From the NCBI RefSeq assembly GCF_019216885.1, contig NZ_JAAQRC020000001.1:3020501-3084500 (forward strand): a DNA stretch of 64,000 nucleotides, given 5' to 3'. The position numbers and the translations under genes are program-made. Source of the DNA: Methylobacterium sp. SyP6R (lineage in GTDB: Bacteria > Pseudomonadota > Alphaproteobacteria > Rhizobiales > Beijerinckiaceae). Shown piece after piece: positions 14,932 through 38,002 of this stretch. The notes beneath the pieces were generated by a model, which saw only the letters and a list, made by a program, of their open reading frames with translations, had not been told where the DNA came from and did not search any database. How positions within the stretch are numbered: the stretch's first letter is position 1; every line of letters starts with the position of its first letter.

Positions 14932-15097
14932 GGGGCGGGGGCGACGCTCCTGATTGCGCGCCGAAAGAGGCGGCTCCTCCCGCGCAGGTGGGACCGCACG
15001 GTCCCCCACGCAACGGGAGGCGAGCCCATAGACCGGCGGAGCCGATCCATCCATCCCCCGGCGACCTCGCGAGAGGCCGCTTGCGAGACCCCTCGGC

Positions 15098-15337
15098 CTA
15101 TTGCGCCTCCGCCTCGGACCGAAGCGCGGCGGTGCGGCGGCGTTCGCAGGCGACCTTCAGGTAGGTCTCGCGTCCGCGCACGAAGCCGCTCTGCGCCGCC
15201 AGGGTCTCGCCCTGCATCAGGCAGGTGACGGGCGAGGGGGCCGGCGCCACCGCGACGTCGAGCGCCGTCTCGCGGGAGCAGTCCGGCGCGGCCAGGGTGC
15301 TGGCGCAGACCAGGGCAACGGTGAGGAATTCCGCCAT
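15098..15337 (-). CDS. Small secreted-type hypothetical protein
   Basis: 79 residues from the ATG at 15337, which has a good GGAGG site 4 bases upstream. The N terminus [18 protein letters not shown] could be a short signal peptide. The rest holds two cysteines ([12 protein letters not shown] and [13 protein letters not shown]) and the segment [14 protein letters not shown] recognise no named family. It is divergent from luxR1, and the 302-base gap 15338-15639 between them holds the 17-bp dyad at 15467. Confidence 0.65.
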
Positions 15338-15466
15338 GCCACCTCCGTCGGCCGCTCGCGCTACGGGTCGGGCGCAGGTCCGGGCCGGACGGGTTGCTCG
15401 CGCCGTACCGGTCCGGCGGAGCGATTCGCGTGCCAGGACCGGACCAAGGTCGAACACCGCGGCATT

Positions 15467-15483
15467 ATGTTGCAGCGCAACAT
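15467..15483. promoter_or_regulatory. 17-bp dyad in the luxR1 upstream region
   Basis: Arms ATGTTGC and GCAACAT are perfect complements around a 3-base centre. The dyad lies 157 bases before luxR1 and 130 bases before the divergent small gene. Its symmetry suggests a dimeric regulator site. Nothing identifies the regulator. Confidence 0.45.
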
Positions 15484-15639
15484 CCGGCCCGGGCCCGGGA
15501 CCGTGGCGCGGCGGTCCATCCTCGCCCAGTCTTCCCGCCTCGGCCGACCTGCCCCTACGGCGCGCGCATTGCGATTTGACTCATGTACTGCCGCATCCAG
15601 CTATAAGAATTGCGTCGTGATCTTTGCTAAGAGGCAGAC

Positions 15640-16368
15640 ATGTCACGTAAACAGCTTGACACAACCCTTGATTTCTTGAAGTCCATCGACGGTGCCGGCA
15701 ACCCTCTGGATGTGTGTCGGCGACTTCTTCCATTGCTCGACCGTTTGGGAATACAGAATTTCATGGCCGGAACAATTCCCCATCCGGGGGCCAATAAGCG
15801 GCAGCAATTATCGAATGTGCTGATCGATTTCTGGCCGCGGGAATGGACCGAAAGATATTTTGCGAAAAACTACATCGCCCGCGACCCGGCCATTCGGCAC
15901 CTGATGACGCAGACGGGCGATTTTCGCTGGGACGAATTGCAACCCCTGTGCAGAGCCGACACGACGGCCCAGCGGATCATGGACGAGGCCGCGGATTTTC
16001 GCCTGCGCCAAGGCATCACGATCCCGTTGCTGACGATCGAGGGCGACGTTGCGGGATTTTCCTTTGCGGGAGAGAACCTGGACATCTCCCCGGAAGACTT
16101 GGGCATGCTGCGCCTCGTCGCGACCTACGCGTTCGGCCGCCTGCTCCTGATCCGCGAAACGCCCGGCACGGGCGTATCCCTGGCTCCGCGCGAGAAGGAG
16201 GCGCTGCAATGGGCGTCGGAGGGCAAGAGCGAATGGGAGATCGGCATGATCATGGGCATCTCCGAGCACGGTGCGGACAAGCACCTGCGCAATGCCCGCG
16301 CGAAGCTCGGCGTGTCGAGCCGGGTCCATGCCGTCGCCCAGGGCATCCGGCTCGGACTGATCGTCTAA
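15640..16368 (+). CDS. LuxR-family quorum-sensing regulator (luxR1, module 1)
   Basis: 242 residues. The N-terminal autoinducer-binding domain keeps the ligand-pocket residues Trp69, Tyr73, Asp82 and Pro83 (EWTERYFAKNYIARDP). The C-terminal helix-turn-helix starts LAPREKEALQWASEGKSEWEIG. The recognition region reads SEHGADKHLRNARAKLG, where the common Thr-Val before the helix is Gly-Ala, so DNA specificity may differ. It is a close paralogue of luxR3 (same length, with shared starts DTTLDFL and DTTLAFL). The stop codon is made by the junction with the IS110 element. Before that insertion the cognate luxI1 lay about 280 bases downstream. Confidence 0.93.
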   Translation: MSRKQLDTTLDFLKSIDGAGNPLDVCRRLLPLLDRLGIQNFMAGTIPHPGANKRQQLSNVLIDFWPREWTERYFAKNYIARDPAIRHLMTQTGDFRWDELQPLCRADTTAQRIMDEAADFRLRQGITIPLLTIEGDVAGFSFAGENLDISPEDLGMLRLVATYAFGRLLLIRETPGTGVSLAPREKEALQWASEGKSEWEIGMIMGISEHGADKHLRNARAKLGVSSRVHAVAQGIRLGLIV

Positions 16369-17609
16369 ATAGAAACTGGCTCTACGGGTTTGATTTCGCA
16401 CGCAAATCCAAGGCGCTCGATCTGCCGCACGAGCGCCTTGGCGCGGATGGTCGGGGCCGCCTTGCGGCCGTGATCAGGCCCGGGATCGACGTAAGCCGTG
16501 CCGGCCTTGAGCATGTGATAGATCGCGGTCAACATCGAAGCGGCGACCGCGCAGATCGCCTTCTTGGGGCCGCGCCGGCCGCGCAAGCGCTGGAACTGCG
16601 CCCTGATGTAGCTCGCCTTCTTGCGCACTCCGGCCCAGGCGGCCTGCACCAAGGCCGTCTTGAGCCAGGGCGCGCCCTTGCGCAGCCGCGTCGAGCGCCG
16701 CTTGCCCGCGCTCTCGTCGTTCCTCGGGCACAGCCCGGCCCAGGAGATCAGATGGCCGGCGGTCGGGAAGCGGCTCATGTCGGGGCCGATCTCGGAGAGG
16801 ATCACCTGCGCGGTGAGGTCACTGATGCCCGGGATCGTCACCAGCAGCTTCACCGCTTCCCGGAAAGGGCCGAGGTCGCGCTCCACCTGCGCGTCGATCT
16901 CCGCGATCGCTCGCCCCAACCCGTCGTACTGGCGTAGATGCACACCGAGCAGGAAACGGTGGTGATCCCCGATCCGGCCCGTGAGCGCGGCCCGGATCGC
17001 CTCGGGCGCCGCCTTCACCCGCGGGCTGACCAGCGCCTGCAGCCCAGCCGGATCGCGCTCGCCCTTGACCAGCGCGTCGAGCACGGCGCGACCGGACTGG
17101 CCCATGATGTCGGTGAGCACCGAGGCGAGCTTGAGGTTGGCCTCCTCGAGGGTCTTCTGGATGCGCTGGACGTGGCTGGCCTGCTCGCGGACCAGTTGCT
17201 TGCGGGTGCGCAGCAGGTCGCGCATCGCCTGGGTCTGGGCCTCGGGCACGAAGCTGGCGCGGATCAGGCCGTGGGCGAGCAGGTCGGAGAGCCAAACCGC
17301 GTCGGCGACGTCGGTCTTGCGGCCGGGCACGTTCTTGACATGGGCGGCATTGGCCAGGATCAGGGTGCGGCTGTCGGCGTCGAGGACCTGCCAGACCGGG
17401 CGCCAGTAGATGCCGGTCGCCTCCATGGCGACATGGGTGCAGGCGTGCTCGTCGAGCCAGGCGGAGAGGTCGAGCAGAGCGGGCGTGGTGGTGGCAAACG
17501 TACGCACCTCACGCTGAACCTCGCTGCTCTCGGCCAGACGGATGGCTGCGACGACGGTGTCCTTGTGAACATCGAGGGCGGCGCAGCGGGGGTAGAGGAC
17601 CTCCATCAC
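16365..17609 (-). CDS. IS110-family DEDD transposase/recombinase, copy 1
   Basis: 414 residues. The N-terminal RuvC-like DEDD domain shows Asp13 (ALDVHKD), Glu63 (AMEATGIYW), Asp100 and Asp103 (KTDVADAVWL). A helical middle domain follows. The C-terminal Tnp20 domain has TIPGISDLTAQVILSEIG and ISWAGLCPRNDESAGKRR, with the likely catalytic Ser300. IS110 recombinases cut and rejoin at a dinucleotide core. The last codon TAG uses the flanking AG of the core as its final two bases. Copy 1 has Glu at residue 3 where copy 2 has Lys; the other two base differences are silent. Confidence 0.95.
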   Translation of the reverse strand: MMEVLYPRCAALDVHKDTVVAAIRLAESSEVQREVRTFATTTPALLDLSAWLDEHACTHVAMEATGIYWRPVWQVLDADSRTLILANAAHVKNVPGRKTDVADAVWLSDLLAHGLIRASFVPEAQTQAMRDLLRTRKQLVREQASHVQRIQKTLEEANLKLASVLTDIMGQSGRAVLDALVKGERDPAGLQALVSPRVKAAPEAIRAALTGRIGDHHRFLLGVHLRQYDGLGRAIAEIDAQVERDLGPFREAVKLLVTIPGISDLTAQVILSEIGPDMSRFPTAGHLISWAGLCPRNDESAGKRRSTRLRKGAPWLKTALVQAAWAGVRKKASYIRAQFQRLRGRRGPKKAICAVAASMLTAIYHMLKAGTAYVDPGPDHGRKAAPTIRAKALVRQIERLGFACEIKPVEPVSI

Positions 17610-17843
17610 GATCTCCTTGCCGTCAGGCCGCCGGCGCAGGCTCCCGTGAGATCAAATCTAAATGACGCGCTCCGGGGCTGGCCCGAGGACCGGCCCGTGA
17701 CGCAAGCGAGGGGACTGAAGAGGAGCCCGGATCCAACTGATACGCGGGGTCTGGCACACCAAAGACGAACCGATCTCTCCGCCGACGGCAAGTCCACTCT
17801 GCCATATGTTTCATCCGCAAGGGACCGCGAAGCCGGTGACGAA
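17610..17843 (-). ncRNA. Candidate bridge RNA region upstream of IS110 transposase, copy 1
   Basis: These 234 non-coding bases lie between the element's left end and the transposase start, where IS110-group elements encode a bridge RNA. The stretch CTGATACG (17737-17744) equals the right target flank including the CT core (19323-19330). CTAAAT (17658-17663) equals the element's own right end with the core (16365-16370). These are candidate target and donor guides, read as complements in an RNA transcribed with the transposase. The RNA itself is inferred; its ends are unknown. Confidence 0.5.
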
Positions 17844-19088
17844 CTAAATAGAAACTGGCTCTACGGGTTTGATTTCGCACGCAAATCCAAGGCGCTCGAT
17901 CTGCCGCACGAGCGCCTTGGCGCGGATGGTCGGGGCCGCCTTGCGGCCGTGATCAGGCCCGGGATCGACGTAAGCCGTGCCGGCCTTGAGCATGTGATAG
18001 ATCGCGGTCAACATCGAAGCGGCGACCGCGCAGATCGCCTTCTTGGGGCCGCGCCGGCCGCGCAAGCGCTGGAACTGCGCCCTGATGTAGCTCGCCTTCT
18101 TGCGCACTCCGGCCCAGGCGGCCTGCACCAAGGCCGTCTTGAGCCAGGGCGCGCCCTTGCGCAGCCGCGTCGAGCGCCGCTTGCCCGCGCTCTCGTCGTT
18201 CCTCGGGCACAGCCCGGCCCAGGAGATCAGATGGCCGGCGGTCGGGAAGCGGCTCATGTCGGGGCCGATCTCGGAGAGGATCACCTGCGCGGTGAGGTCA
18301 CTGATGCCCGGGATCGTCACCAGCAGCTTCACCGCTTCCCGGAAAGGGCCGAGGTCGCGCTCCACCTGCGCGTCGATCTCCGCGATCGCTCGCCCCAACC
18401 CGTCGTACTGGCGTAGATGCACACCGAGCAGGAAACGGTGGTGATCCCCGATCCGGCCCGTGAGCGCGGCCCGGATCGCCTCGGGCGCCGCCTTCACCCG
18501 CGGGCTGACCAGCGCCTGCAGCCCAGCCGGATCGCGCTCGCCCTTGACCAGCGCGTCGAGCACGGCGCGACCGGACTGGCCCATGATGTCGGTGAGCACC
18601 GAGGCGAGCTTGAGGTTGGCCTCCTCGAGGGTCTTCTGGATGCGCTGGACGTGGCTGGCCTGCTCGCGGACCAGTTGCTTGCGGGTGCGCAGCAGGTCGC
18701 GCATCGCCTGGGTCTGAGCCTCGGGCACGAAGCTGGCGCGGATCAGGCCGTGGGCGAGCAGGTCGGAGAGCCAGACCGCGTCGGCGACGTCGGTCTTGCG
18801 GCCGGGCACGTTCTTGACATGGGCGGCATTGGCCAGGATCAGGGTGCGGCTGTCGGCGTCGAGGACCTGCCAGACCGGGCGCCAGTAGATGCCGGTCGCC
18901 TCCATGGCGACATGGGTGCAGGCGTGCTCGTCGAGCCAGGCGGAGAGGTCGAGCAGAGCGGGCGTGGTGGTGGCAAACGTACGCACCTCACGCTGAACCT
19001 CGCTGCTCTCGGCCAGACGGATGGCTGCGACGACGGTGTCCTTGTGAACATCGAGGGCGGCGCAGCGGGGGTAGAGGACCTTCATCAC
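17844..19088 (-). CDS. IS110-family DEDD transposase/recombinase, copy 2
   Basis: 414 residues, identical to copy 1 except Lys instead of Glu at residue 3. The DEDD residues (Asp13, Glu63, Asp100, Asp103) and Ser300 of the Tnp20 domain are intact, so both copies look active. The stop codon TAG again ends in the AG core at 17844-17845, here supplied by the junction with copy 1. The reading frame reaches the last base of the element. Confidence 0.95.
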   Translation of the reverse strand: MMKVLYPRCAALDVHKDTVVAAIRLAESSEVQREVRTFATTTPALLDLSAWLDEHACTHVAMEATGIYWRPVWQVLDADSRTLILANAAHVKNVPGRKTDVADAVWLSDLLAHGLIRASFVPEAQTQAMRDLLRTRKQLVREQASHVQRIQKTLEEANLKLASVLTDIMGQSGRAVLDALVKGERDPAGLQALVSPRVKAAPEAIRAALTGRIGDHHRFLLGVHLRQYDGLGRAIAEIDAQVERDLGPFREAVKLLVTIPGISDLTAQVILSEIGPDMSRFPTAGHLISWAGLCPRNDESAGKRRSTRLRKGAPWLKTALVQAAWAGVRKKASYIRAQFQRLRGRRGPKKAICAVAASMLTAIYHMLKAGTAYVDPGPDHGRKAAPTIRAKALVRQIERLGFACEIKPVEPVSI

Positions 19089-19322
19089 GATCTCCTTGCC
19101 GTCAGGCCGCCGGCGCAGGCTCCCGTGAGATCAAATCTAAATGACGCGCTCCGGGGCTGGCCCGAGGACCGGCCCGTGACGCAAGCGAGGGGACTGAAGA
19201 GGAGCCCGGATCCAACTGATACGCGGGGTCTGGCACACCAAAGACGAACCGATCTCTCCGCCGACGGCAAGTCCACTCTGCCATATGTTTCATCCGCAAG
19301 GGACCGCGAAGCCGGTGACGAA
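19089..19322 (-). ncRNA. Candidate bridge RNA region upstream of IS110 transposase, copy 2
   Basis: Same 234-base non-coding left end as in copy 1, with the CTGATACG segment at 19216-19223. It abuts the chromosomal target at 19323, where the same eight bases occur. See copy 1 for the reasoning; transcription is inferred. Confidence 0.5.
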
Positions 19323-19324
19323 CT

Positions 19325-19362
19325 GATACGAAATCCGGAAGAACACTTCTGGATTTCGTATC
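19325..19362 (+). terminator. Strong stem-loop that directly follows the ancestral luxR1 stop
   Basis: A 17-bp stem (19325-19341 with 19346-19362, one G-U pair) closes a 4-base loop. Without the IS pair it would begin inside the luxR1 stop codon TGA. There is no U tract, so it may stabilise or end the luxR1 mRNA. Two more stem-loops follow (19391-19426 and about 19435-19465). The IS110 pair inserted at the foot of this hairpin. Confidence 0.6.
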
Positions 19363-19531
19363 ACCAGCCCGCGCGGCGCGTGAGCGAAGCCGATTTCCGC
19401 ATCGCGAAGCGATCAGTCGGAAATCGTATGATGCGGTTTTCGGACGATCCGTTCGGAAACCGTATCGGCAAGCCCGCGCGGTGGAGTCGGTGGCTCCACA
19501 CGCTTGAGCGATGCGGAACCCGTACGACAAG

Positions 19532-19547
19532 GTACGCGATCGCGTAC
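19532..19547. promoter_or_regulatory. 16-bp perfect palindrome upstream of luxI1 (candidate lux box)
   Basis: GTACGCGATCGCGTAC is fully self-complementary and is centred about 63 bases before the luxI1 start codon, where lux-type operators are commonly found. It does not match the classic Vibrio or TraR boxes. The cognate regulator would be LuxR1 by position. This is inference. Confidence 0.45.
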
Positions 19548-19569
19548 TGCCGGGTCTCGGTGCCGGATG

Positions 19570-19592
19570 CTGAAATGGTGTTGCCATTTCAG
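19570..19592 (+). promoter_or_regulatory. Stem-loop touching the luxI1 ribosome-binding site
   Basis: Arms CTGAAATGG and CCATTTCAG are perfectly complementary around TGTTG. The 3' arm runs into AGGAAAG (19591-19597), the presumed ribosome-binding site, 10 bases before the ATG at 19603. A similar stem with 5-base loop TGTCG sits at the same place before luxI2. It could be an RNA switch on translation or a DNA operator. Confidence 0.6.
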
Positions 19593-19602
19593 GAAAGTCG
19601 CC

Positions 19603-20235
19603 ATGATCTCCATCGTCACCGCCGCCAATATCCGCAGCTTTGCATCCGAGATGGAGCAGGCCTATCGCCTGAGACATCAGGTCTTCGTCACCGAGATGGG
19701 ATGGAAGGACATCGAGAGGCCGGATGGACGGGAAATCGACCAGTTCGACGACCAGCATGCCGTGCACATGCTGGCGACGGACCGGGGCGAGGTGCTGGGC
19801 TACCAGCGGATGCTGCCGACGACCCGGCCGTACCTGCTGACGGAGGTGCTGCCGCAACTCTGTGACGGGCCGGCACCGCGGGGCCCGCACATCTGGGAAT
19901 GGACGCGCTACTGCGTCAAGCAGGGGCATCGCGACCGCGGCCGGATGCTGAGCCCGATCGGCAGCGCGTTGCTGACGGGAATCGTGGAATGGGGGCTCGC
20001 CAGCGGGGTCGATCAGATCGTCATCGAGATGAACCCGTTGTGGCTCCTCCGGCTGGTACAACTGCATTTCCGGGTCACGCCCCTCGGCATTCCCCAGATC
20101 GTCGGCACCCAGGAAACCGTCGCGGTGACCGCCGCCTTCGACGAGCGGACGCTGGAGCGCCTGCGGACCGTGCGCGGCAGCGAGGCTCCGGTGATCCGGG
20201 ACGACGTCCTCACGGACCGGCGGCTCTTCGGCTAG
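19603..20235 (+). CDS. LuxI-family acyl-homoserine-lactone synthase (luxI1, module 1)
   Basis: 210 residues from the ATG at 19603; this start aligns with luxI2 (MISIVTAANI and MIHAVDAANI). The conserved catalytic set is present: Arg24 and Phe28 (RLRHQVF), Trp34 (EMGW), Asp46 and Asp49 (EIDQFD), Arg69 (GYQRM), and Glu and Arg of WEWTRY. The enzyme joins S-adenosylmethionine with an acylated carrier to give an acyl-homoserine lactone. Acyl length cannot be read from the sequence. A palindrome and a stem-loop precede the gene. Its partner luxR1 is now separated from it by two IS110 copies. Confidence 0.95.
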   Translation: MISIVTAANIRSFASEMEQAYRLRHQVFVTEMGWKDIERPDGREIDQFDDQHAVHMLATDRGEVLGYQRMLPTTRPYLLTEVLPQLCDGPAPRGPHIWEWTRYCVKQGHRDRGRMLSPIGSALLTGIVEWGLASGVDQIVIEMNPLWLLRLVQLHFRVTPLGIPQIVGTQETVAVTAAFDERTLERLRTVRGSEAPVIRDDVLTDRRLFG

Positions 20236-20460
20236 AGCATTTTCCGACGAAGTGGATGCCGGTTCGTCGCAGAAAACGCGAAAAAACAAAGACTTGGAGA
20301 GCTTCGCGATTGCAGCGCGATCGTGAAGCGCTCTAAACAGGCTTCGCAAAAGTGGCCGCCGCTTTTGCGATAAAAGCCCGCGACAAAACAGGAATCCAGC
20401 CCTGTTTGGAGCACTTTTCGACGACGTGGGCGCCGGTTCGTCGCGGACGAAGCGGCAGAA
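20236..20460. repeat. Rhizobiales-type intergenic repeat cluster
   Basis: Two related segments begin GAGCATTTTCCGACGA (20235) and GAGCACTTTTCGACGA (20409); both continue to a GCCGGTTCGTCGC core. Between them is a GCAAAAGTGGCCGCC...GCGACAAAACAGG segment, a relative of which occurs at 23964-24010. Such elements are common between genes in this order. The remaining DNA to 20604 holds a thrice-repeated CCCCGATGGCGCT-like tract (20547-20593) and no gene. Confidence 0.65.
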
Positions 20461-20604
20461 CCGGAGACCGATCGCAGCATGATCGGGCGATGACCAGGGT
20501 CGATGGATCACGTCACGCCGTCAGGGGGATGTCGTTCGCGACATTCCCCCGATGGCGCTTGCCCCCGATGGCGCTCGCCCCCGATGGCGCTTGCCTGAAC
20601 GCGC

Positions 20605-21029
20605 TCACCCTTCGGGTCCATCCCGCTCCGCCTCCGCGCCCTGCGCCGCGAGGGAGAGGATCAGCCGCGCCACCCGCATCCGGACCTCGGGCGGCGTGAT
20701 CCGCCGGAAGGCTGCCAGGATCGCCTGCTCGTCCGGCAGCGGCGCATCGTCCTGCGCGGCCTCCAGCCCGACCCGGCCGATTTCCGTTGGAATGAAGATC
20801 GAATCGATCGGGCATCGCAGGATCGAGCAGATCTTCCAGAGCAATCCTGCGCTGATATGGTCCTGACCAAGCTCGTATTTCATGATCTGGTGATCCGATA
20901 CGCCGACAAGGTCGCCGAGTTTCAGTCGATATATTCCGCGATCCAGTCGGAAGGCGCGAATTTTTCTTCCTATTGCGCGTTTCGTTGCGAGGTCGTCGAA
21001 AAATATGTTGTCGCCGCTCGATTTTCCAT
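20605..21029 (-). pseudogene. XRE-family DNA-binding regulator, frameshifted
   Basis: Translation of the frame ending at 20605 gives a complete XRE helix-turn-helix (GRKIRAFRLDRG, LGDLVGVSDHQIMKYELG, ISAGLLWKICSILRCPIDSIF) and a helical tail. However, that frame has no ATG, GTG or TTG before the middle of the domain. The only sensible upstream start is ATG at 21029 in another frame (MENRAATTY). The two frames join if one base is added to the five-A run at 20999-21003. A 1-base deletion, slippage, or a sequence error would explain this. The short downstream ATG at 20883 gives only half a domain. The gene is divergent from luxR2. Confidence 0.7.
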
Positions 21030-21130
21030 TCCCCGCACGAATATGCTAATATCTCTCGGTCGACAAAATATGGCGCAACCAAAGCTCATATCATATTCCG
21101 CAGCAGACGATAATCAAGGCGCCGGGAGTC

Positions 21131-21874
21131 ATGACCAATTTCACCCAGATCAGTTTTGACCTGCTTTCGGCAATAAAACAAAGTTCCGACGCGGATCAGG
21201 TTTGCGCGATACTTGAGCATGCTTCGCACATTTTTGGATACGAGACGTTCGTCGTCGCCGGGGCGCCACTGAAATCTCAGGACAACCTGCAGGACCGGCT
21301 GACGCTCGGGCGGCTGCCGGCACGATGGTCCGAGCGCTACGGGGAATGCGGCTACATCCACCACGATCCCGTCGTCGCGCATGCGCGGCGGATGAACGGG
21401 CTGTTCCGGTGGTCGGACGCGCCCGTCGGCCGCGACGAGCGCCTGGCCCGGACCATCATGGGGGAGGCCTCCGAGATCGGATTGCGGGACGGATACTGCA
21501 TTCCGATCCAGGACCTGACGTGTACGCGGATCGTGTCGTTCGGCGGTGCGCATCTCGACCTGCCGGACCAGGCCTTGTCCGGGCTGCACATGCTGGCCAT
21601 CTACGCCGACCTCGCCGTCCGTGATCTCGCCGTCCGGGTGCCGGCCGCGACGCGGCAGCGCGCGCTCGCCCCGGGATCGCCGCGCTGCTCGCCGCGCGAG
21701 ATCGAGTGCATCAAGTGGGCCGCCGCCGGCAAGACCGGCTGGGAGACCTCCGAGATCCTGTCGCTGTCGCACCGCACCGTCGAGAGCTACCTGAACACGG
21801 CGGCGCAGAAGCTGGGAGCGACCAACCGCGCCCATCTCGTGGCGCAGGCCCTGCGCCACGGAATCATCGATTGA
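21131..21874 (+). CDS. LuxR-family quorum-sensing regulator (luxR2, module 2)
   Basis: 247 residues. The ligand-binding domain keeps Trp66, Tyr70, Asp79 and Pro80 (RWSERYGECGYIHHDP). The helix-turn-helix is CSPREIECIKWAAAGKTGWE followed by LSHRTVESYLNTAAQKLGATN, a standard LuxR recognition helix. It is more distant from luxR1 and luxR3 than they are from each other. It shares a 101-base AT-rich divergent promoter region (21030-21130) with the frameshifted XRE gene. The luxI that should follow is only a relic, so this regulator may now answer the signals of the neighbouring modules or of other cells. Confidence 0.93.
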   Translation: MTNFTQISFDLLSAIKQSSDADQVCAILEHASHIFGYETFVVAGAPLKSQDNLQDRLTLGRLPARWSERYGECGYIHHDPVVAHARRMNGLFRWSDAPVGRDERLARTIMGEASEIGLRDGYCIPIQDLTCTRIVSFGGAHLDLPDQALSGLHMLAIYADLAVRDLAVRVPAATRQRALAPGSPRCSPREIECIKWAAAGKTGWETSEILSLSHRTVESYLNTAAQKLGATNRAHLVAQALRHGIID

Positions 21875-21967
21875 CGGGGATCGTCGGCTGAGCCGGCGAT
21901 CGTAGAATCACGGGGTATCGCAACCGCCGACGAATGCCGTACCCCGCTCCGCGGAGGAGGGGCGGCG

Positions 21968-22197
21968 GCGGTCACGGTCGTCGACGCGGACAACAACCGT
22001 CGGAGCACCCCCTCCCGCATGCCCTGTGCCGGTTTCGGCATCGCGTCTTCGTCGAGACCACGGGGTGGCGAGATCATGATGTCGGAAGCATGCCGCAGGC
22101 CGGTTGGACGAGCGCGTGCCTCCTCCAGCCCGTTCGGGCAGGCCGCATTGCCGACGAGATCGCGCGCGCTTCTCACGATGGAGTTCGCGGCGGACAA
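21968..22197 (+). pseudogene. Decayed luxI relic (module 2)
   Basis: The stretch reads VTVVDADNNRRSTPSRM in the frame of 21971, matching the luxI start (AVDAANIHQYRCEM in luxI2). It then continues after a 1- or 4-base deletion near 22022-22029 as RFRHRVFVETTGWRD in the frame of 22030, matching RLRHQVFVEEMGWRY. Further on, SRALLTMEFAA (about 22160) recalls SRLVTMRLLAG of luxI2, but the catalytic centre between them is gone. No start codon remains. It lies exactly where a synthase should lie, between luxR2 and luxR3. The N-terminal half is convincing, the rest weaker. Confidence 0.65.
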
Positions 22198-22238
22198 TCT
22201 ATCTTGCGTTCCTCCAAGGGAGATGGGACGGCCGAGCC

Positions 22239-22967
22239 ATGACACGCAGAACGCTTGATACCACGCTCGCATTTCTTCGCGCGCTTGATCGAGCCGCCAG
22301 CCCGCAAGATGTCGGGACTCTCCTGCGTCAGGAGCTCTCCGAATACGGAGTCGAGCACATGCTGGCCGGCATGATCCCCAGTCCAGGCGCTTCCGCCGGG
22401 CGCCAGTATGGGCACGTCCTTCTCGACGGCATGCCGCCGGCCTGGATCAAGCGATACGCTGCCAAAGGTTATATTTACCGCGACGCGACAGTACGCCGGC
22501 TCTGCTTCGATCAGGAGCCGTTCACCTGGTCGTCGGCCGTGGAGCGGTATGCCGATGATCCGATGGCGGTGCGGATCATGCACGAGGCCGCCGACCATGG
22601 CGCACGCGCGGGCCTGACCATCCCGCTGCTCACCCTTGATGCCAGCCTCGCGGCATGCAGCGTCTCCGGACGCCACTTCGACGTGCCTCCCGACAAGGTC
22701 GGCACCGTGCAACTCATCGCCACCTACGCGGCCGCGCGCCTGATGCTGCTGCGCGGGTCGGAATCGGTCGAGGTTCGGTTGACCGATCGCGAGCGCGAGG
22801 TGCTGCAATGGGCGGCAGACGGAAAGACGGCCTGGGAGACGGGTGAGATATTGGCAGTCTCGTCGAAGACGGTGGAGCATCACCTGTCGACATCGCGCCA
22901 GAAGCTCCGTGCGCTGAACGGCGTTCAAGCCGTCGCCAACGCGCTTCGGCAGGGACTCATTCATTAG
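22239..22967 (+). CDS. LuxR-family quorum-sensing regulator (luxR3, module 3)
   Basis: 242 residues from the ATG at 22239, chosen because it aligns with the start of luxR1; longer in-frame extensions run through the luxI relic. The ligand pocket has Trp69, Tyr73 and Asp82, but the usual Pro after Asp is Ala83 (GYIYRDATVRR), which may alter ligand fit. The helix-turn-helix is LTDREREVLQWAADGKTAWE followed by VSSKTVEHHLSTSRQKL. luxI2 starts 66 bases downstream on the same strand, so the two are probably one transcription unit. Confidence 0.93.
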   Translation: MTRRTLDTTLAFLRALDRAASPQDVGTLLRQELSEYGVEHMLAGMIPSPGASAGRQYGHVLLDGMPPAWIKRYAAKGYIYRDATVRRLCFDQEPFTWSSAVERYADDPMAVRIMHEAADHGARAGLTIPLLTLDASLAACSVSGRHFDVPPDKVGTVQLIATYAAARLMLLRGSESVEVRLTDREREVLQWAADGKTAWETGEILAVSSKTVEHHLSTSRQKLRALNGVQAVANALRQGLIH

Positions 22968-23004
22968 GGGATTTCCCAATACACGGCCGTTGCGCAAAAT
23001 GAAT

Positions 23005-23029
23005 ATTTCCCCAGTGTCGCTGGGGAAAT
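23005..23029 (+). promoter_or_regulatory. Stem-loop containing the luxI2 ribosome-binding site
   Basis: Arms ATTTCCCCAG and CTGGGGAAAT are perfectly complementary around TGTCG. The 3' arm contains GGGGA (23022-23026), the only good ribosome-binding site for the ATG at 23034, so a folded mRNA would hide it. The counterpart before luxI1 has the loop TGTTG. This suggests control of synthase translation. Confidence 0.65.
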
Positions 23030-23033
23030 GCCA

Positions 23034-23654
23034 ATGATCCATGCCGTGGATGCTGCGAACATTCATCAATACAGATGCGAAATGGAGGCCGTGTGGCGGC
23101 TCAGACATCAAGTATTTGTCGAGGAAATGGGCTGGAGATATCTTGATCGTCCCGACGGGCGCGAGATCGACCAATTCGATACGCCTGCCGCCGTCCATCT
23201 CTTGGCGATCGATGACGGCCAAGTGATCGGATACAGCCGTTTGGTGCCGACCATTGGTCCGCATTTGTTGTCGGAAGTGTTTCCGCACGTCTGCGAGGAG
23301 ATTCCACGAGGGCCTCACGTCTGGGAGTGGACCCGGCAGGCCGTCGCTCCATCCCATCGCGCCCGCGGCACGTCCCGCCTGGTCACGATGCGGCTGTTGG
23401 CCGGCATCGTCGAATGGGGGATGGCGAATGGCGTATCGAGCGTGACGACGCTGATGCCGATGTCGTATCTGGGACCCTTTCTCGACGCGCATTTCCGCGT
23501 CGTTCCGCTCGGCTTGCCGACCGAGATCGATGGGAAGCGCACGCTGGCGGGGCAGGCCCATTTCGACGCCCGCACCATCCGCCGGCTCGGCGAGATGCGG
23601 GGCGATCCGACACCCGTGCTCGTCCACCGTCCCGCACCGGCTCTGGTGGCGTGA
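23034..23654 (+). CDS. LuxI-family acyl-homoserine-lactone synthase (luxI2, module 3)
   Basis: 206 residues from the ATG at 23034; an ATG at 23028 would add two residues but lies inside the stem-loop and does not align with luxI1. Arg24, Phe28, Trp34, Asp46, Asp49, Arg69 and the Glu/Arg pair of WEWTRQ are all present, so it should be active. It resembles luxI1 strongly in the N-terminal half (RPDGREIDQFD shared) and diverges in the C-terminal acyl-chain region (VTTLMPMSYLGPFLDAHFRV), which suggests a different acyl chain. It follows luxR3 directly and precedes a small gene by 16 bases. Confidence 0.95.
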   Translation: MIHAVDAANIHQYRCEMEAVWRLRHQVFVEEMGWRYLDRPDGREIDQFDTPAAVHLLAIDDGQVIGYSRLVPTIGPHLLSEVFPHVCEEIPRGPHVWEWTRQAVAPSHRARGTSRLVTMRLLAGIVEWGMANGVSSVTTLMPMSYLGPFLDAHFRVVPLGLPTEIDGKRTLAGQAHFDARTIRRLGEMRGDPTPVLVHRPAPALVA

Positions 23655-23670
23655 AGGATTTCAACCGGCC

Positions 23671-23961
23671 ATGACCCAGCGCCCCCTCCCGTCCGTCGAC
23701 GACGTCGCCGCGATGCTGCCCGGGCTCGTCCGGGCCCTCGGGCTCATCGTCGATCAGACGGAACCCCTCGTCGAGCTTTCCCGCCGGGCGACCAACCTGC
23801 CCGAAGAGACGGCGGACAGGATGTCCGACATCGGCCACGCGTTGACGGAGCAGGCCCACCTCCTGATGCGCGAGGCGGCCGAGCGCCGGCAGTCCGGGCC
23901 GGGCCGCATCGCCCTCAAGGCTGCCTCCGGTGTGGAGACGGGCGAGACGTCCGGCGGCTAA
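23671..23961 (+). CDS. Small hypothetical protein downstream of luxI2
   Basis: 96 residues, starting 16 bases after luxI2 and so probably in the same transcript. The sequence is helical and acidic in its first 70 residues (SVDDVAAMLPGLVRALGLIVDQTEPLVELSRRATNLPEETADRMSDIGHAL is mostly amphipathic; shown here as description, not one motif). The tail is Gly- and Thr-rich. There is no membrane segment or signal peptide, and I do not recognise a family. Position suggests a link to signal production or response, which is inference only. Confidence 0.6.
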   Translation: MTQRPLPSVDDVAAMLPGLVRALGLIVDQTEPLVELSRRATNLPEETADRMSDIGHALTEQAHLLMREAAERRQSGPGRIALKAASGVETGETSGG

Positions 23962-23963
23962 GC

Positions 23964-24020
23964 GGATTTCGCAAAAGTCGCCACCGGTTTTGCGGAAAAA
24001 ATCTGCGACAAAACAAGGAT
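23964..24020. repeat. Rhizobiales-type intergenic repeat fragment
   Basis: A TTTCGCAAAAGTCGCCACCG segment followed by TGCGACAAAACAAGGATC resembles the repeat cluster at 20340-20400. It marks the right edge of the quorum-sensing island. Confidence 0.55.
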
Positions 24021-24100
24021 CTAAGCGGACGAAGCGTTGGTCTGCCGACGCAAGGCTGCTTAGGCCGGTCGCCCGGCTCGGCGGACCCGAGTTTTGTGCC

Positions 24101-24130
24101 TTGACGAGACGCGCGCAAACGCGGTTTATG
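24101..24130 (+). promoter_or_regulatory. Candidate sigma-70 promoter of tRNA-Thr
   Basis: TTGACG (24101-24106) and TTTATG (24125-24130) are spaced 18 bases apart, about 50 bases before the tRNA. Good -35 match, moderate -10. Confidence 0.5.
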
Positions 24131-24182
24131 TCGCCCCGGATGTCCGCGATTTGCCAGCCATGGCAGATATTTGCGCCGTCCA

Positions 24183-24257
<75 letters not shown>

Positions 24258-24306
24258 TTCATCCCGGACAAGGCCGCTCGGGCGGCGCCCCATCGGTCGA
24301 GGCGCG

Positions 24307-25413
24307 ATGATGCCGTCCTTCCGCATCCGCCAGCTCCTGATCGCGGTGCCCCTCCTGCTCGCGGCGTCGGTCGGCCGACCCGAGGCCGCCGACGGTGCGG
24401 GCCGGCACCACAGGCCCGTCGCGGTCCTCGCCGACCGGAGCCTTGCGGTGGCGCCGGGCGCGCGTCTGCCGCTCTTCGCCTCCGCCGACCTGGAGGGGCG
24501 CCACCCGGAGGTGACCCGGGCGGTGATCGTGCTCCATGGCCGCCTGCGCGACGCCGCGACCTATTTCGAGACCGGCCTGTCCGCCCGGGAGGCCGCCGGC
24601 CCGGCGGGCGAGGGCACGCTGATCGTGGCGCCGCAATTCCTCAGCCGCACCGACTGGGAGGCCTACGACCTGCCGCAGGACGTGCTGCGCTGGACGCGCG
24701 AGGGCTGGGAGGGCGGGGACGACGCGCTCGGGCCCAATCTTCCCGGATCTCATCTTCCCGGTTCCAAGCCCCTCAGTTCCTTCGATGCCCTCGACGCGAT
24801 CCTGGCCCGCCTCGGCGACCGGACCCGCTTCCCGAACCTGTCGCGCATCGTCGTCGCCGGGCATTCCGGCGGCGGGCAGGTGGCGCAGCGCTACGCCGTC
24901 CTGTCCCGGGCCGGCGACGCCCTGGCGCGGCAGGGCGTGCGCGTGAGCTATATCGTCGCCAATCCGAGCAGCTATGCCTATTTCACCCCCGAGCGGCCGG
25001 GCCCGACCGCCGGTTGCCCCGGCTACGACCGCTGGAAATACGGCGTGCAGGATCTGCCGCGCTACGCCGCCGGGGCCGACCCCGGGGCGCTCGAGGCGGC
25101 CTACGTCGCCCGGCCGGTGACCTACCTGCTCGGCGGCCTGGACACCGACCCGGACCACCCGGCCCTCGACAAGAGCTGCATGGCCGAGGCGCAGGGGCCG
25201 TTCCGGCTCGCCCGCGGCGAGTTCTACCGGGCGGCCCTGAAGGCGCGCCATCCCGACCTGCGGCAACCCCTCCACGTGGTGCCGGGCGTCGGCCATAGCG
25301 GTCGGCGGATGCTCGGCTCGGCCTGCGGCCTCTCGGCCCTGTTCGATATGCCGGGCTGCGGCAACGAGGCTGGCCCGGTTCGTGCCAGCCGGAGCGGCAC
25401 ACACACGAGGTAA
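24307..25413 (+). CDS. Exported alpha/beta-hydrolase-fold protein
   Basis: 368 residues. The N terminus MMPSFRIRQLLIAVPLLLAA followed by SVGRPEAADG is a signal peptide with a likely cleavage after residues near 28, so the protein is periplasmic. The nucleophile elbow is VVAGHSGGGQVAQR (Ser near residue 197) and a late His lies in VPGVGHSGRR. The oxyanion region VIVLHGRLRDAA is also visible. This fits a serine esterase/lipase-like hydrolase of unknown substrate. A start at either of two adjacent ATGs (24307, 24310) is possible. The asparaginase-like gene follows after 9 bases. Confidence 0.8.
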   Translation: MMPSFRIRQLLIAVPLLLAASVGRPEAADGAGRHHRPVAVLADRSLAVAPGARLPLFASADLEGRHPEVTRAVIVLHGRLRDAATYFETGLSAREAAGPAGEGTLIVAPQFLSRTDWEAYDLPQDVLRWTREGWEGGDDALGPNLPGSHLPGSKPLSSFDALDAILARLGDRTRFPNLSRIVVAGHSGGGQVAQRYAVLSRAGDALARQGVRVSYIVANPSSYAYFTPERPGPTAGCPGYDRWKYGVQDLPRYAAGADPGALEAAYVARPVTYLLGGLDTDPDHPALDKSCMAEAQGPFRLARGEFYRAALKARHPDLRQPLHVVPGVGHSGRRMLGSACGLSALFDMPGCGNEAGPVRASRSGTHTR

Positions 25414-35275: not shown

Positions 35276-37462
35276 ATGACCGCCCCGATCGCCGACGTCC
35301 TGATCCCGCTCGCCCTCGACCAGGCCTATAGCTACGCCGTGCCGCCCGAGCTGGCGCTGGCGGAGGGCGACGTGGTGCAGGTGCCGCTCGGGCCCCGCGA
35401 GATCGTGGGTGTCGTGTGGAGCCTGCGCGACGGCGCCGGCTCGAACCTGAGGCGGGTCACCGGCCGGATCGGTGTCGAGCCTCTGAGCCCGGCGCTCCGC
35501 CGCCTCGTCGAGTGGATCGCCCGCTACACCCTGGCGCCGAAGGGCTCGGCGCTCGCCATGGCGCTCCGCCTGCCGGAGGAGAGCCGCACCGAGACCGCCA
35601 AGGTCGGCGTCCGCGCGACCGGCATGCCGCCGAGCCGGATGACTCCGGCGCGGGGCAAGGTGGTGGCGGTGGCGGCCGACGGCGTGGTGCGGGGCAAGCG
35701 GGCGCTCAGCCTGGAGGCCGGCGTCAGCGCCAGCGTGGTGGACGGGCTGATCGACGACGGCGTGCTGGAGACCGTGGCGCTCGCCCCCGAACGAATCGCC
35801 GAGCCGCCCGATCCCGATCATCCGCACGATCCCCTCTCCGAGCCCCAGTCCGAGGCAGCTCGCGCCCTGATCGCCACGCTCACTGCCCCGCCCGTCGGCG
35901 GGGGGGCGGCGGGAGAGGGTGGCGTGACGCTGCTCGAAGGCGTGACCGGGTCGGGCAAGACGGAGGTCTATTTCGAGGTCGTGGCCGAGGCCCTGCGCCG
36001 GGGCGTGCAATCCCTGGTGCTGATGCCGGAGATTGCGCTCACGGCGCAGTTCCTCGACCGCTTCGCCAAGCGCTTCGGGGTCAGGCCCGCCGCCTGGCAT
36101 TCCGGAATCGGCGGGCGTCGTCGCGAAAAGATCCGGGCCGGCGTGGCCTCCGGCGAGGTGCAGGTGGTGGTGGGCGCCCGCTCGGCCCTGTTCCTGCCGT
36201 TCGCCAAGCTCGGGCTGATCGTCGTCGACGAGGAGCACGAGGGCGCCTACAAGCAGGATGACGGCGTCTGCTACCACGCCCGCGACATGGCGGTGGTGCG
36301 CGGCAAGCTGGAGAATGCCGCCGTGGTGCTGGCCTCGGCCACGCCCGCGATCGAGACCCGGGTCAATGCCGAGCGCGGCCGCTACCGCCGGGTGGTGATG
36401 CCCGAGCGCTTCGGCGGACGGCGCCTGCCGGAGATCCGCGCCATCGACATGCGGGCCGAGAAGGTGCCGCGCGGGCGCTACCTGTCGCCGAGCCTCGTCT
36501 CCGCCATCGCCGAGACCAACGCGCGGGGCGAGCAGGCGCTGCTCTTCCTCAACCGCCGCGGCTACGCCCCGCTCACCCTGTGCCGGGCCTGCGGCCATCG
36601 CTACCAATGCCCGAACTGCTCGACCTGGCTCGTCGAGCACCGCTTCCGCCGGGCGCTGGTCTGCCACCATTGCGGCCATGCCGAGCGGCGCCCGGAGGCC
36701 TGCACCGAATGCGGCACCTTCGACAACCTGACCGCCTGCGGGCCGGGCGTCGAGCGCATCGCCGAGGAGGTCTCCGCCACCTTCCCGGACAAGCGGGTGA
36801 TCGTCCTGTCGAGCGACTTTCCCGGCGGGGCCGAGCGGTTGCGGGCCGAGCTCCAGACCGTGGCCGAGGGCGGCTGCGACATCGTGGTGGGCACCCAGCT
36901 CGTCGCCAAGGGCCACAACTTCCCGCACCTCACCCTCGTCGGCGTGCTCGATGCCGATATCGGGCTGACCTCCGGCGATCCCCGCGCGGCCGAGCGCACG
37001 TTCCAGCTGCTCCAGCAGGTGACGGGCCGGGCCGGGCGCGGCGAGAAGCCGGGCCGGGCGCTCGTCCAGAGCTACCAGCCCGAGCATCCGGTGCTCTCGG
37101 CGCTCATCTCGGGCGATGCCGAGCGCTTCTATGCCGAGGAGACGGCCGCCCGCGAGGTCGCCGGCCTGCCGCCCTTCGGGCGTCTCGCAGCCTTGGTGAT
37201 CTCCTGCACCGACCGCGAGGCGGCCGAAGCCCATGGCCGCGCGCTCGCCCGCGTCGCCGAGCCGCCGCCCGGCGTGATGGTGCTCGGCCCGGCGGAAGCG
37301 CCGCTCGCGCTGGTGCGCGGCCGCTACCGCTTCCGCCTCCTGGTCAAGACCGAGCGCGAGATCGACCTCCAGAGCTATCTGCGCGATTGGCTCGCCCGGG
37401 GGCCGAAGGTGCGGGGGAATCTCAGGGTCGGGATCGATGTCGATCCGCAGAGTTTTCTGTAG
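35276..37462 (+). CDS. priA: Primosomal replication-restart helicase PriA
   Basis: 728 residues, the full family length. The 3'-end-binding domain starts VLIPLALDQAYSYAVP. The helicase core has Walker A LLEGVTGSGKTEVYFE (near residue 225), Walker B DEEHEGAYKQ (near 317) and ASATPAIET. The zinc-binding region has eight cysteines: CRACGHRYQCPNC and then CHHCG, CTECG and a further Cys (residues about 436-485). Late helicase motifs DIGLTSGDPRAAERTFQLL and QVTGRAGRG are present. PriA reloads the replisome at stalled forks. The unconserved middle (about 110-190) is alphaproteobacterial in style. Confidence 0.97.
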   Translation: MTAPIADVLIPLALDQAYSYAVPPELALAEGDVVQVPLGPREIVGVVWSLRDGAGSNLRRVTGRIGVEPLSPALRRLVEWIARYTLAPKGSALAMALRLPEESRTETAKVGVRATGMPPSRMTPARGKVVAVAADGVVRGKRALSLEAGVSASVVDGLIDDGVLETVALAPERIAEPPDPDHPHDPLSEPQSEAARALIATLTAPPVGGGAAGEGGVTLLEGVTGSGKTEVYFEVVAEALRRGVQSLVLMPEIALTAQFLDRFAKRFGVRPAAWHSGIGGRRREKIRAGVASGEVQVVVGARSALFLPFAKLGLIVVDEEHEGAYKQDDGVCYHARDMAVVRGKLENAAVVLASATPAIETRVNAERGRYRRVVMPERFGGRRLPEIRAIDMRAEKVPRGRYLSPSLVSAIAETNARGEQALLFLNRRGYAPLTLCRACGHRYQCPNCSTWLVEHRFRRALVCHHCGHAERRPEACTECGTFDNLTACGPGVERIAEEVSATFPDKRVIVLSSDFPGGAERLRAELQTVAEGGCDIVVGTQLVAKGHNFPHLTLVGVLDADIGLTSGDPRAAERTFQLLQQVTGRAGRGEKPGRALVQSYQPEHPVLSALISGDAERFYAEETAAREVAGLPPFGRLAALVISCTDREAAEAHGRALARVAEPPPGVMVLGPAEAPLALVRGRYRFRLLVKTEREIDLQSYLRDWLARGPKVRGNLRVGIDVDPQSFL

Positions 37463-37517
37463 CGCGGAAACTCGAACACTCTGACCTTGCAGAGGACCGC
37501 TGGGGGGTGGGCAGACG

Positions 37518-37919
37518 TTAGATTTCGGCAACGGTTGGCGTTCCCTGATGGAATGCCATCTGCCAGTTGCCGTCGATCAGCTTCCAAACCGAACTGCGCA
37601 GCGTATGCATGTCCGGTACTCCTTCCACCTTCCGAACGGTTCTATAGGTTAAAAGCACGACGCCCGCAGAGAGGGTCCTCAGCTCGTATCCGTAGGCGGT
37701 CAGCTCCGATCGCTCGCATTCCTGCTCCGCAGCCAGTCTGCGAACGACTTCATCTTTCCCGTATGCTCCACCAGATCTTCCGAATTCAAGAAAATCATCT
37801 GCCAGCAGTGCGGCCACCTTATCTTGTGAGCTACGAATGGCGGGATCATGCAGACGCTCTTCCAAGGCTCTCACAAGATCCAGTTCGCTGGGCGAAGCCG
37901 TCCTCATATCCACTACCAT
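37518..37919 (-). CDS. NTF2-like (DUF4440-type) protein of lower GC
   Basis: 133 residues. The pattern VRALEERLHDP, VAALLADDFLEFGRSGGAYGKDEV (in part) and VWKLIDGNWQMAFHQGTP is that of the DUF4440/SnoaL-like NTF2 fold, small cone-shaped barrels that bind or convert small molecules. The function is unknown. The gene has visibly more A and T, and less GC-biased third positions, than its neighbours, suggesting recent acquisition. It lies between convergent priA and the Tricorn-like gene. Confidence 0.8.
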   Translation of the reverse strand: MVVDMRTASPSELDLVRALEERLHDPAIRSSQDKVAALLADDFLEFGRSGGAYGKDEVVRRLAAEQECERSELTAYGYELRTLSAGVVLLTYRTVRKVEGVPDMHTLRSSVWKLIDGNWQMAFHQGTPTVAEI

Positions 37920-38002
37920 CCTGGGTCAGCTTGCTCGAAATGTCCGCGAGAGGTCGAAGGTACCTACTCATATCGCCAGACTGATCCCATCCTGGCCTCG
38001 GG

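Follow-up and report, generated by a model that had tools for sequence, protein, structure and literature searches.

In alphaproteobacterial luxI genes, a hairpin over the ribosome-binding site, locked in position yet variable in sequence, may silence read-through transcripts from an upstream luxR while the LuxR-activated transcript starts inside it, a reading drawn from sequence to which an even chance of being correct is assigned. Two such leaders lie in a 64,000-nucleotide stretch of Methylobacterium sp. SyP6R, hereafter the window (G000:C1:3020501-3084500, G000 being the present strain), within the 6.4-Mb chromosome of a 7.5-Mb genome. Three luxR genes (R1, R2, and R3) stand there with two intact luxI genes (I1 and I2) and a relic of I_R2, the luxI that belonged to R2. 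The locus itself, which adjoins a tRNA gene, is very probably a mosaic of three luxR-luxI modules with separate ancestries, R3-I2 having taken the place of the resident synthase. Of the two results, the leader hairpin is the more novel, and it rests on computation.

Inverted repeats directly before the start codons were recognised by reading in both the I1 and I2 leaders. The I1 hairpin (CTGAAATGG/CCATTTCAG, 19570..19592, plus strand) adjoins the Shine-Dalgarno sequence and is weakly sequestering; the I2 hairpin (ATTTCCCCAG/CTGGGGAAAT, 23005..23029, plus strand) holds the Shine-Dalgarno sequence in its 3' arm. The start of I2 is most likely 23034 rather than 23028, because the upstream ATG overlaps the end of the hairpin and the conserved start reads M-I. 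The stretch from -40 to +8 was folded against dinucleotide shuffles, expressed as a z score, in 111 unique luxI leaders (from 187 matches, with 10 lacking the N-terminus and 66 duplicates dropped) and in 105 luxR leaders of the same loci (from 191 matches, with 16 lacking the N-terminus, 19 lacking a near start codon, and 51 duplicates dropped). The mean z was -2.51 for the luxI leaders (61% below -2), 0.05 for the luxR leaders (4% below -2), -0.01 for 16 leaders of P, the small gene behind I2, and -0.07 for general genes (114 long open reading frames, with starts chosen by the best Shine-Dalgarno sequence). A further 64 alphaproteobacterial luxI, taken from 71 places after omission of four of this genome, one repeat, one with an inner stop, and one short sequence, gave a mean z of -2.04 with 53% below -2. 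An additional 65 of the listed places were read (26 from the same family or order, 20 from the same class, and all 19 listed from outside the class), and the 19 leaders from outside the class showed a mean z of -0.61 and a median of +0.06.

The pairing is locked in position, with the loop at -18..-15 and a 3' arm at -13..-1 containing the Shine-Dalgarno sequence. When arms were swapped among 120 luxI leaders less than 60% identical, own-arm pairing amounted to -12.47 kcal/mol versus -8.66 kcal/mol for swapped arms, a difference reached by 0 of 5000 permutations; the same swap in 59 luxR leaders, used as control, had no effect (2912 of 5000). Within stems anchored by Watson-Crick pairs (131 of 160 leaders), G-U pairs outnumbered A-C pairs by 46 to 16 (p 1.8e-4), the corresponding counts being 260 and 293 in shuffles and six each in luxR leaders. 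Because the arms co-vary and G-U exceeds A-C, the hairpin is read as an RNA feature; it behaves as RNA in these comparisons, a G-U excess not being expected of a DNA operator. RNAalifold returned no consensus structure from gapped leader alignments in three groups, probably since the stems differ in register, and no Rfam 15 family was found at the I1 or I2 leader (window 15000-24500, E up to 1). The I2 leader is also strong in a 70-nt context (z -2.59). An extreme luxI hairpin at locus L265 (CATAGTCAGGCTCC-AACTGC-GGAGCCTGACTATG) lies over both the Shine-Dalgarno sequence and the start codon, with a z of -7.5. No luxI start-site hairpin or measured luxI transcript start was found in the literature searched, most subscription papers lying outside it.

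With a class-II activator, the centre of the box usually lies 42.5 bp before the transcript start. A dyad with at least six of seven pairs, centred between -70 and -55, occurs in 43% of the 111 luxI leaders, in 1.5% of shuffles, and in one of the 105 luxR leaders. In the window, the R1-type lux box (GTACGCGATCGCGTAC, 19532..19547, unstranded) is centred 63.5 bp before I1, and the R3-type box (TTAGGGGATTTCCCAA, 22964..22979, unstranded), which overlaps the R3 stop codon, 62.5 bp before I2; the I1 box of Mesorhizobium (M. japonicum) is centred 61.5 bp before its start codon, according to the available part of that report (PMC10470506). The set used for predicting starts comprised 174 non-redundant leaders of 221, and 61 of the 174 carry a clear lux-type dyad. 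Assuming the class-II distance, the predicted activated start has a median of -21.5; of the 59 leaders with both features, 52 have it beyond the midpoint of the 5' arm and one has it upstream of the whole 5' arm. Box and loop positions also covary (correlation 0.55; variance 12.9 versus 28.1 permuted). Cutting the leader at -21 raised the openness of the Shine-Dalgarno sequence from 0.24 to 0.46 in the 111 luxI and from 0.25 to 0.49 in 110 others; the same cut gave 0.42 to 0.51 outside the class (n=19) and left luxR at 0.42. In addition, excess pairing was greater where a co-directional luxR lies upstream, at -4.01 for 129 alphaproteobacterial leaders versus -1.85 for 31 (one-sided p 0.006); outside the class, four leaders with a co-directional upstream luxR gave -4.22 versus -0.04 for 13 others.

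On transcripts reading through from the upstream luxR, the hairpin would hide the luxI ribosome-binding site, while the signal-activated transcript would start inside the hairpin, lack the 5' arm, and hence be translatable; such a guard would prevent autoinduction from switching on at low density. In the window, the old box of R2 (CGTAGAATCACGG, 21901..21913, unstranded) still precedes the relic, and from it R2 could drive transcription across R3 and into I2; the I2 hairpin would silence I2 on these R2-driven transcripts until R3 and signal fire the inner promoter. In the late genes of phage T4 and the IS10 transposase, the ribosome site is likewise hidden on read-through transcripts. The likeness lies in the logic proposed here for luxI, and silencing of this type was not found for quorum sensing in the literature searched. 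Post-transcriptional control at quorum-sensing genes does have parallels in Pseudomonas, namely a small RNA from the rhlI 5' untranslated region (PMC6786874) and the phzX 5' untranslated region (PMC5815613); in the accessible portions of these two reports the mechanism is apparently another one, and not a position-locked hairpin at the start site. If true, the guard means that LuxR-LuxI autoinduction is also controlled at translation throughout the class, and it would concern builders of luxI circuits, whose constructs lose the guard when the leader is dropped or replaced.

The same structural data would fit a hairpin that sits in the main luxI mRNA as a switch for another input, be it an RNA thermometer, a small RNA, or an RNA-binding protein. 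This alternative is possible but doubtful, given that the predicted start falls inside the hairpin in most leaders with both features, that hairpin strength tracks a luxR lying upstream, and that the stem sequences vary, as would not be expected of a single site for a small RNA or a protein. Several observations weigh against the read-through guard itself. The transcript start is deduced from the lux box and an assumed class-II distance, only 61 of 174 alphaproteobacterial leaders have the clear dyad, and mis-assigned start codons would likewise shift box and loop together. Cut leaders are open (above 0.5) in only 44 of 111. The upstream-luxR effect outside the class owes most to a single leader (L299, z -7.8), z being -1.2, -0.2, and 0.6 in the remaining three, and five alphaproteobacterial leaders with an opposed upstream luxR also fold well (mean z -2.07). 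The folding signal is weaker in the additional alphaproteobacterial sets (mean z -1.96 for the 26 of the same family or order and -1.36 for the 20 of the same class), 3 of the 19 leaders outside the class also fall below -2, and a z of -1 or higher is found in 16% of the 111 and 31% of the 64 luxI leaders. In the 70-nt context, z is only -0.46 for the I1 leader of the window and +0.52 for the I_R2 leader of the relative G005, and no hairpin pairing with the Shine-Dalgarno sequence was called in 7 of the 174 non-redundant alphaproteobacterial leaders. The leaders are moreover related by descent, so that the p values are optimistic.

Turning to the locus, the gene order on the plus strand is R1, a dimer of IS110 elements (transposases on the minus strand), I1, R2, the relic, R3, I2, P, and the tRNA gene. 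R1 (15640..16368, 242 amino acids), R2 (21131..21874, 247 amino acids), and R3 (22239..22967, 242 amino acids), all plus strand, each carry Autoind_bind and GerE domains far over the Pfam cut-offs, and I1 (19603..20235, plus strand, 210 amino acids) and I2 (23034..23654, plus strand, 206 amino acids) match Autoind_synth with 80.5 and 80.3 bits against a cut-off of 24. Domains and coordinates thus bear out the initial annotation, made from the letters alone, in placing three luxR and two intact luxI side by side. Genome-wide, four luxI occur, and five genes exceed the Autoind_bind cut-off. The receptors are 43% (R1/R3), 32% (R1/R2), and 34% (R2/R3) identical, and the two synthases 51.5%. The closest solved structures to the window synthases are 5w8a and 5w8c, titled 'Autoinducer synthase', which we take to be BjaI of the acyl-CoA group. 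The locus is bounded by the tRNA gene (24183..24254, plus strand), with the anticodon TGT (Thr) as judged by eye, and this boundary is syntenic in relatives.

Comparison with relatives, the nearest named one at the locus being M. aquaticum DSM 16371 (G004; I1 95% identical), carries the account of its history. In G064, the locus is limited to R2, an intact I_R2, and P, and the sequences that flank R1-I1 are 116 bp apart; G104 has R2-I_R2-P, and R2-I_R2 is present without R1-I1 in five of the six relatives with the locus compared. G005 bears R1-I1-R2-I_R2-P, all intact, without IS110 and R3-I2, and DSM 16371 has R1-I1-R2, with I_R2 and P gone and the upstream box kept. In the present strain, some 90-120 bp of the I_R2 start are followed by R3 and I2, after which the sequence matches G005 again from the start codon of P onward; among 111 genomes of the genus, only this strain has R3-I2 at the locus. 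R2-I_R2-P would accordingly be the resident module, to which R1-I1 would most simply have been added upstream before this strain, G005, and DSM 16371 separated. R3-I2 would later have replaced most of I_R2 here, landing directly before the resident P, and the IS110 dimer would have split R1 from I1. As to present function, R1 probably answers the I1 signal at the I1 box, and R3 the I2 signal at the I2 box, driving I2 together with P, while R2, having lost its synthase, would act as a LuxR solo, and transcription from its old box may run on into R3-I2-P. The locus shows in-place circuit replacement by stages: one relative has the resident pair whole, another shows its deletion, and here a different pair has been substituted in a manner that kept the old output gene and left the old receptor as a solo; the origin of LuxR solos is thereby made testable in close relatives. 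R3-type luxR and I2-type luxI are unlinked in some genomes, lying more than 100 kb apart in G011 and G064 and on separate contigs in G016 (loci L095, L098, L101, L148, L150, and L153).

The relic (approximately 21968..22103, plus strand) amounts to about 45 codons of the N-terminal part, with its start codon lost and its frame broken. Its counterpart is the intact luxI behind the R2 orthologue, to which it aligns over the initial ~90 bp in G005 and ~120 bp in G064, one 35-bp piece alone giving an E of 3e-6, and the intact G005 I_R2 is about 34% identical to both I1 and I2. By these alignments, the relic derives from the I_R2 family, which is distinct from that of I1 and I2. The initial annotation was correct in calling the relic luxI-derived and in supposing that one synthase had decayed, whereas its account of serial duplication is not supported.

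That account, in which one luxR-luxI cassette was serially duplicated and then diverged, draws on the equal length of R1 and R3 (242 amino acids, with aligned starts) and on the placement of I1 and I2 in the same broad LuxI subfamily at the identity given above. Trees were built by a quick method with support from the Shimodaira-Hasegawa-like approximate likelihood ratio test, with 65 rows for LuxI and 62 for LuxR. I1 groups with M. hispanicum, M. dankookense, and relatives (85), I2 falls in a Methylobacterium clade including G104 (96), and I_R2 in a distant clade (100); R1 groups with G004 and G005 (100) and R3 with the partner gene of G104 (99), while R2 stands elsewhere, so that receptors and synthases alike fall into three lineages. 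The approximately unbiased (AU) test, run after dropping long or duplicate rows (10 of 65 for I and 6 of 62 for R), rejects a clade of R1 and R3 (p 1.4e-4) and one of all three receptors (p 7e-46). Serial duplication is not supported, because trees and AU tests put the modules in three lineages, each receptor being nearest to genes of other species; with R2-I_R2 standing without R1-I1 in most relatives and the operators of the modules differing, it is judged highly improbable. A serially duplicated array is rejected on the trees, the AU tests, and the synteny of G064, the modules not being each other's closest relatives; phylogeny was the check that the initial annotation had itself named as able to overturn its view. 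Similarly remote is the notion that the relic is a working truncated luxI. In M. extorquens AM1, and hence in the same bacterial group, tslI is a truncated luxI homologue that governs signal synthesis, as stated in the available text (PMC12502750); unlike what that text describes, the present relic is frame-broken, has lost its start codon, and belongs to a gene missing altogether in DSM 16371, on which grounds a functional truncated luxI is rejected as highly improbable. Some points count against the replacement history. AU rejection of I1 with I2 is borderline (p 0.049), and the nearest relatives of I2 are metagenomic proteins without context (92%, 85%, and 75% identical), the best matches in the 111 genus genomes being 61-64% for I2 and 59% for R3. 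Inspection of the R3-I2 junctions by eye showed no ends of a mobile element, no search aimed at them having been made. Parsimony is the ground for reading R1-I1 as inserted and not as lost from G064 and G104, and the DSM 16371 assembly is a draft of ~510 contigs.

The array is real, uncommon, and built of known kinds of parts, and is best explained as in-place replacement of a synthase. The initial annotation had called a triple array unusual, which agrees with the survey: among the matches listed for the 111 genus genomes, two luxI within 10 kb were seen by eye in two genomes, G000 and G005, at the same locus. In a more distant alphaproteobacterium, G114, two luxI lie 2.4 kb apart on one strand (G114:C11:394334-397212; L237 and L253).

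When this strain is compared with DSM 16371, I_R2 being absent from both, the intact R2 shows a ratio of nonsynonymous to synonymous substitution rates (dN/dS) of 0.16; the remaining unsaturated R2 pairs give 0.15-0.23 and the R1 pairs 0.09-0.11, the comparison with G104 being saturated. R2 is apparently under continued selection by this measure, against which it counts that the path compared may largely predate the synthase losses, which are not datable from dN/dS. LuxR solos are a known class (PMC10134790), ExpR of S. meliloti being an example (PMC5977203), and R2 may be regarded as a new member in that it is an intact LuxR without a synthase; relative to the solos described in the available portions of those sources, the stages of loss are visible here, I_R2 being intact in G005, a relic in this strain, and deleted in DSM 16371.

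P (23671..23961, plus strand, 96 amino acids), the putative resident output gene, begins 16 bp behind I2. It is taken as the resident copy because its identity is 91% with the P that G005 carries in the R2 module and only 46-51% with those of eight R3/I2-type modules; homologues stand behind luxI in 11 other modules, eight of R3/I2 type and three of I_R2 type. Its predicted structure is a helical hairpin (mean predicted local distance difference test score 72.6), for which no match in the PDB was found at E 0.001; a profile search of solved structures gave weak matches, the best being a designed coiled coil (E 0.0095). In the Mma quorum-sensing system of Methylobacterium fujisawaense, a luxR-luxI pair is likewise followed by a small protein gene (MmaR-MmaI-MmaP), MmaP having 59 amino acids in the part of the report available (PMC10790750); P is longer, and three modules lie in one place here. 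P shares with small regulators of the MmaP/CinS type its place directly behind luxI. A 49-member cluster of small open reading frames behind other luxI, which P does not join in blastp clustering at E 1e-4, is possibly MmaP-like and covers at least 14 loci (L012, L013, L017, L018, L023, L035, and L070-L077). Two more P-like genes (59% and 43%; L196 and L202) lie on contig C3 of this genome (C3:171846 and C3:50239), with no I1-, I2-, or I_R2-like match within their 1.5-kb flanks; the 252-kb contig also bears a luxR-luxI pair at 36963-38268.

The two IS110 copies that the initial annotation had placed between R1 and I1 prove to be a head-to-tail dimer (16367..19324; units 16367-17845 and 17846-19324, transposases minus) with DEDD and Transposase_20 domains. 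The units of 1479 bp each are joined at a CT dinucleotide and differ at four positions as cut, one of which lies just outside the repeat by the junction sequence. The dimer, absent at the locus in DSM 16371 and G005, sits at CT|GA of the R1 stop codon, which is TGA in these two and TAA here, leaving the end of the R1 protein unaltered. A head-to-tail CT junction of IS110 could unite the element ends and affect expression of its guide RNA. A mobile element gene between luxR and luxI has a parallel in M. nodulans ORS 2060, where the available text describes a luxR-X-luxI topology with an integrase or transposase (PMC3386692); here the element is a dimer of IS110 and interrupts one module of the three.

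Cross-talk at the level of DNA looks limited, because the three operators differ, which says nothing on ligands. The exact I1-box and I2-box patterns occur once each genome-wide. No regulon is claimed for either: genome-wide, 41 sites match the R3 pattern when as many as two mismatches are allowed, versus 30 in a reversed control, and seven places match the R1 pattern when one is allowed, versus 52 in its control. Palindromic repeats (GATACGAAATCC... and CGGAAATCGTAT...) were seen by eye at 19325-19525, between the IS110 dimer and the I1 box, and a 92-amino-acid open reading frame on the minus strand (20605-20883) has a weak match to half of a helix-turn-helix (E 0.018), possibly marking a regulator fragment.

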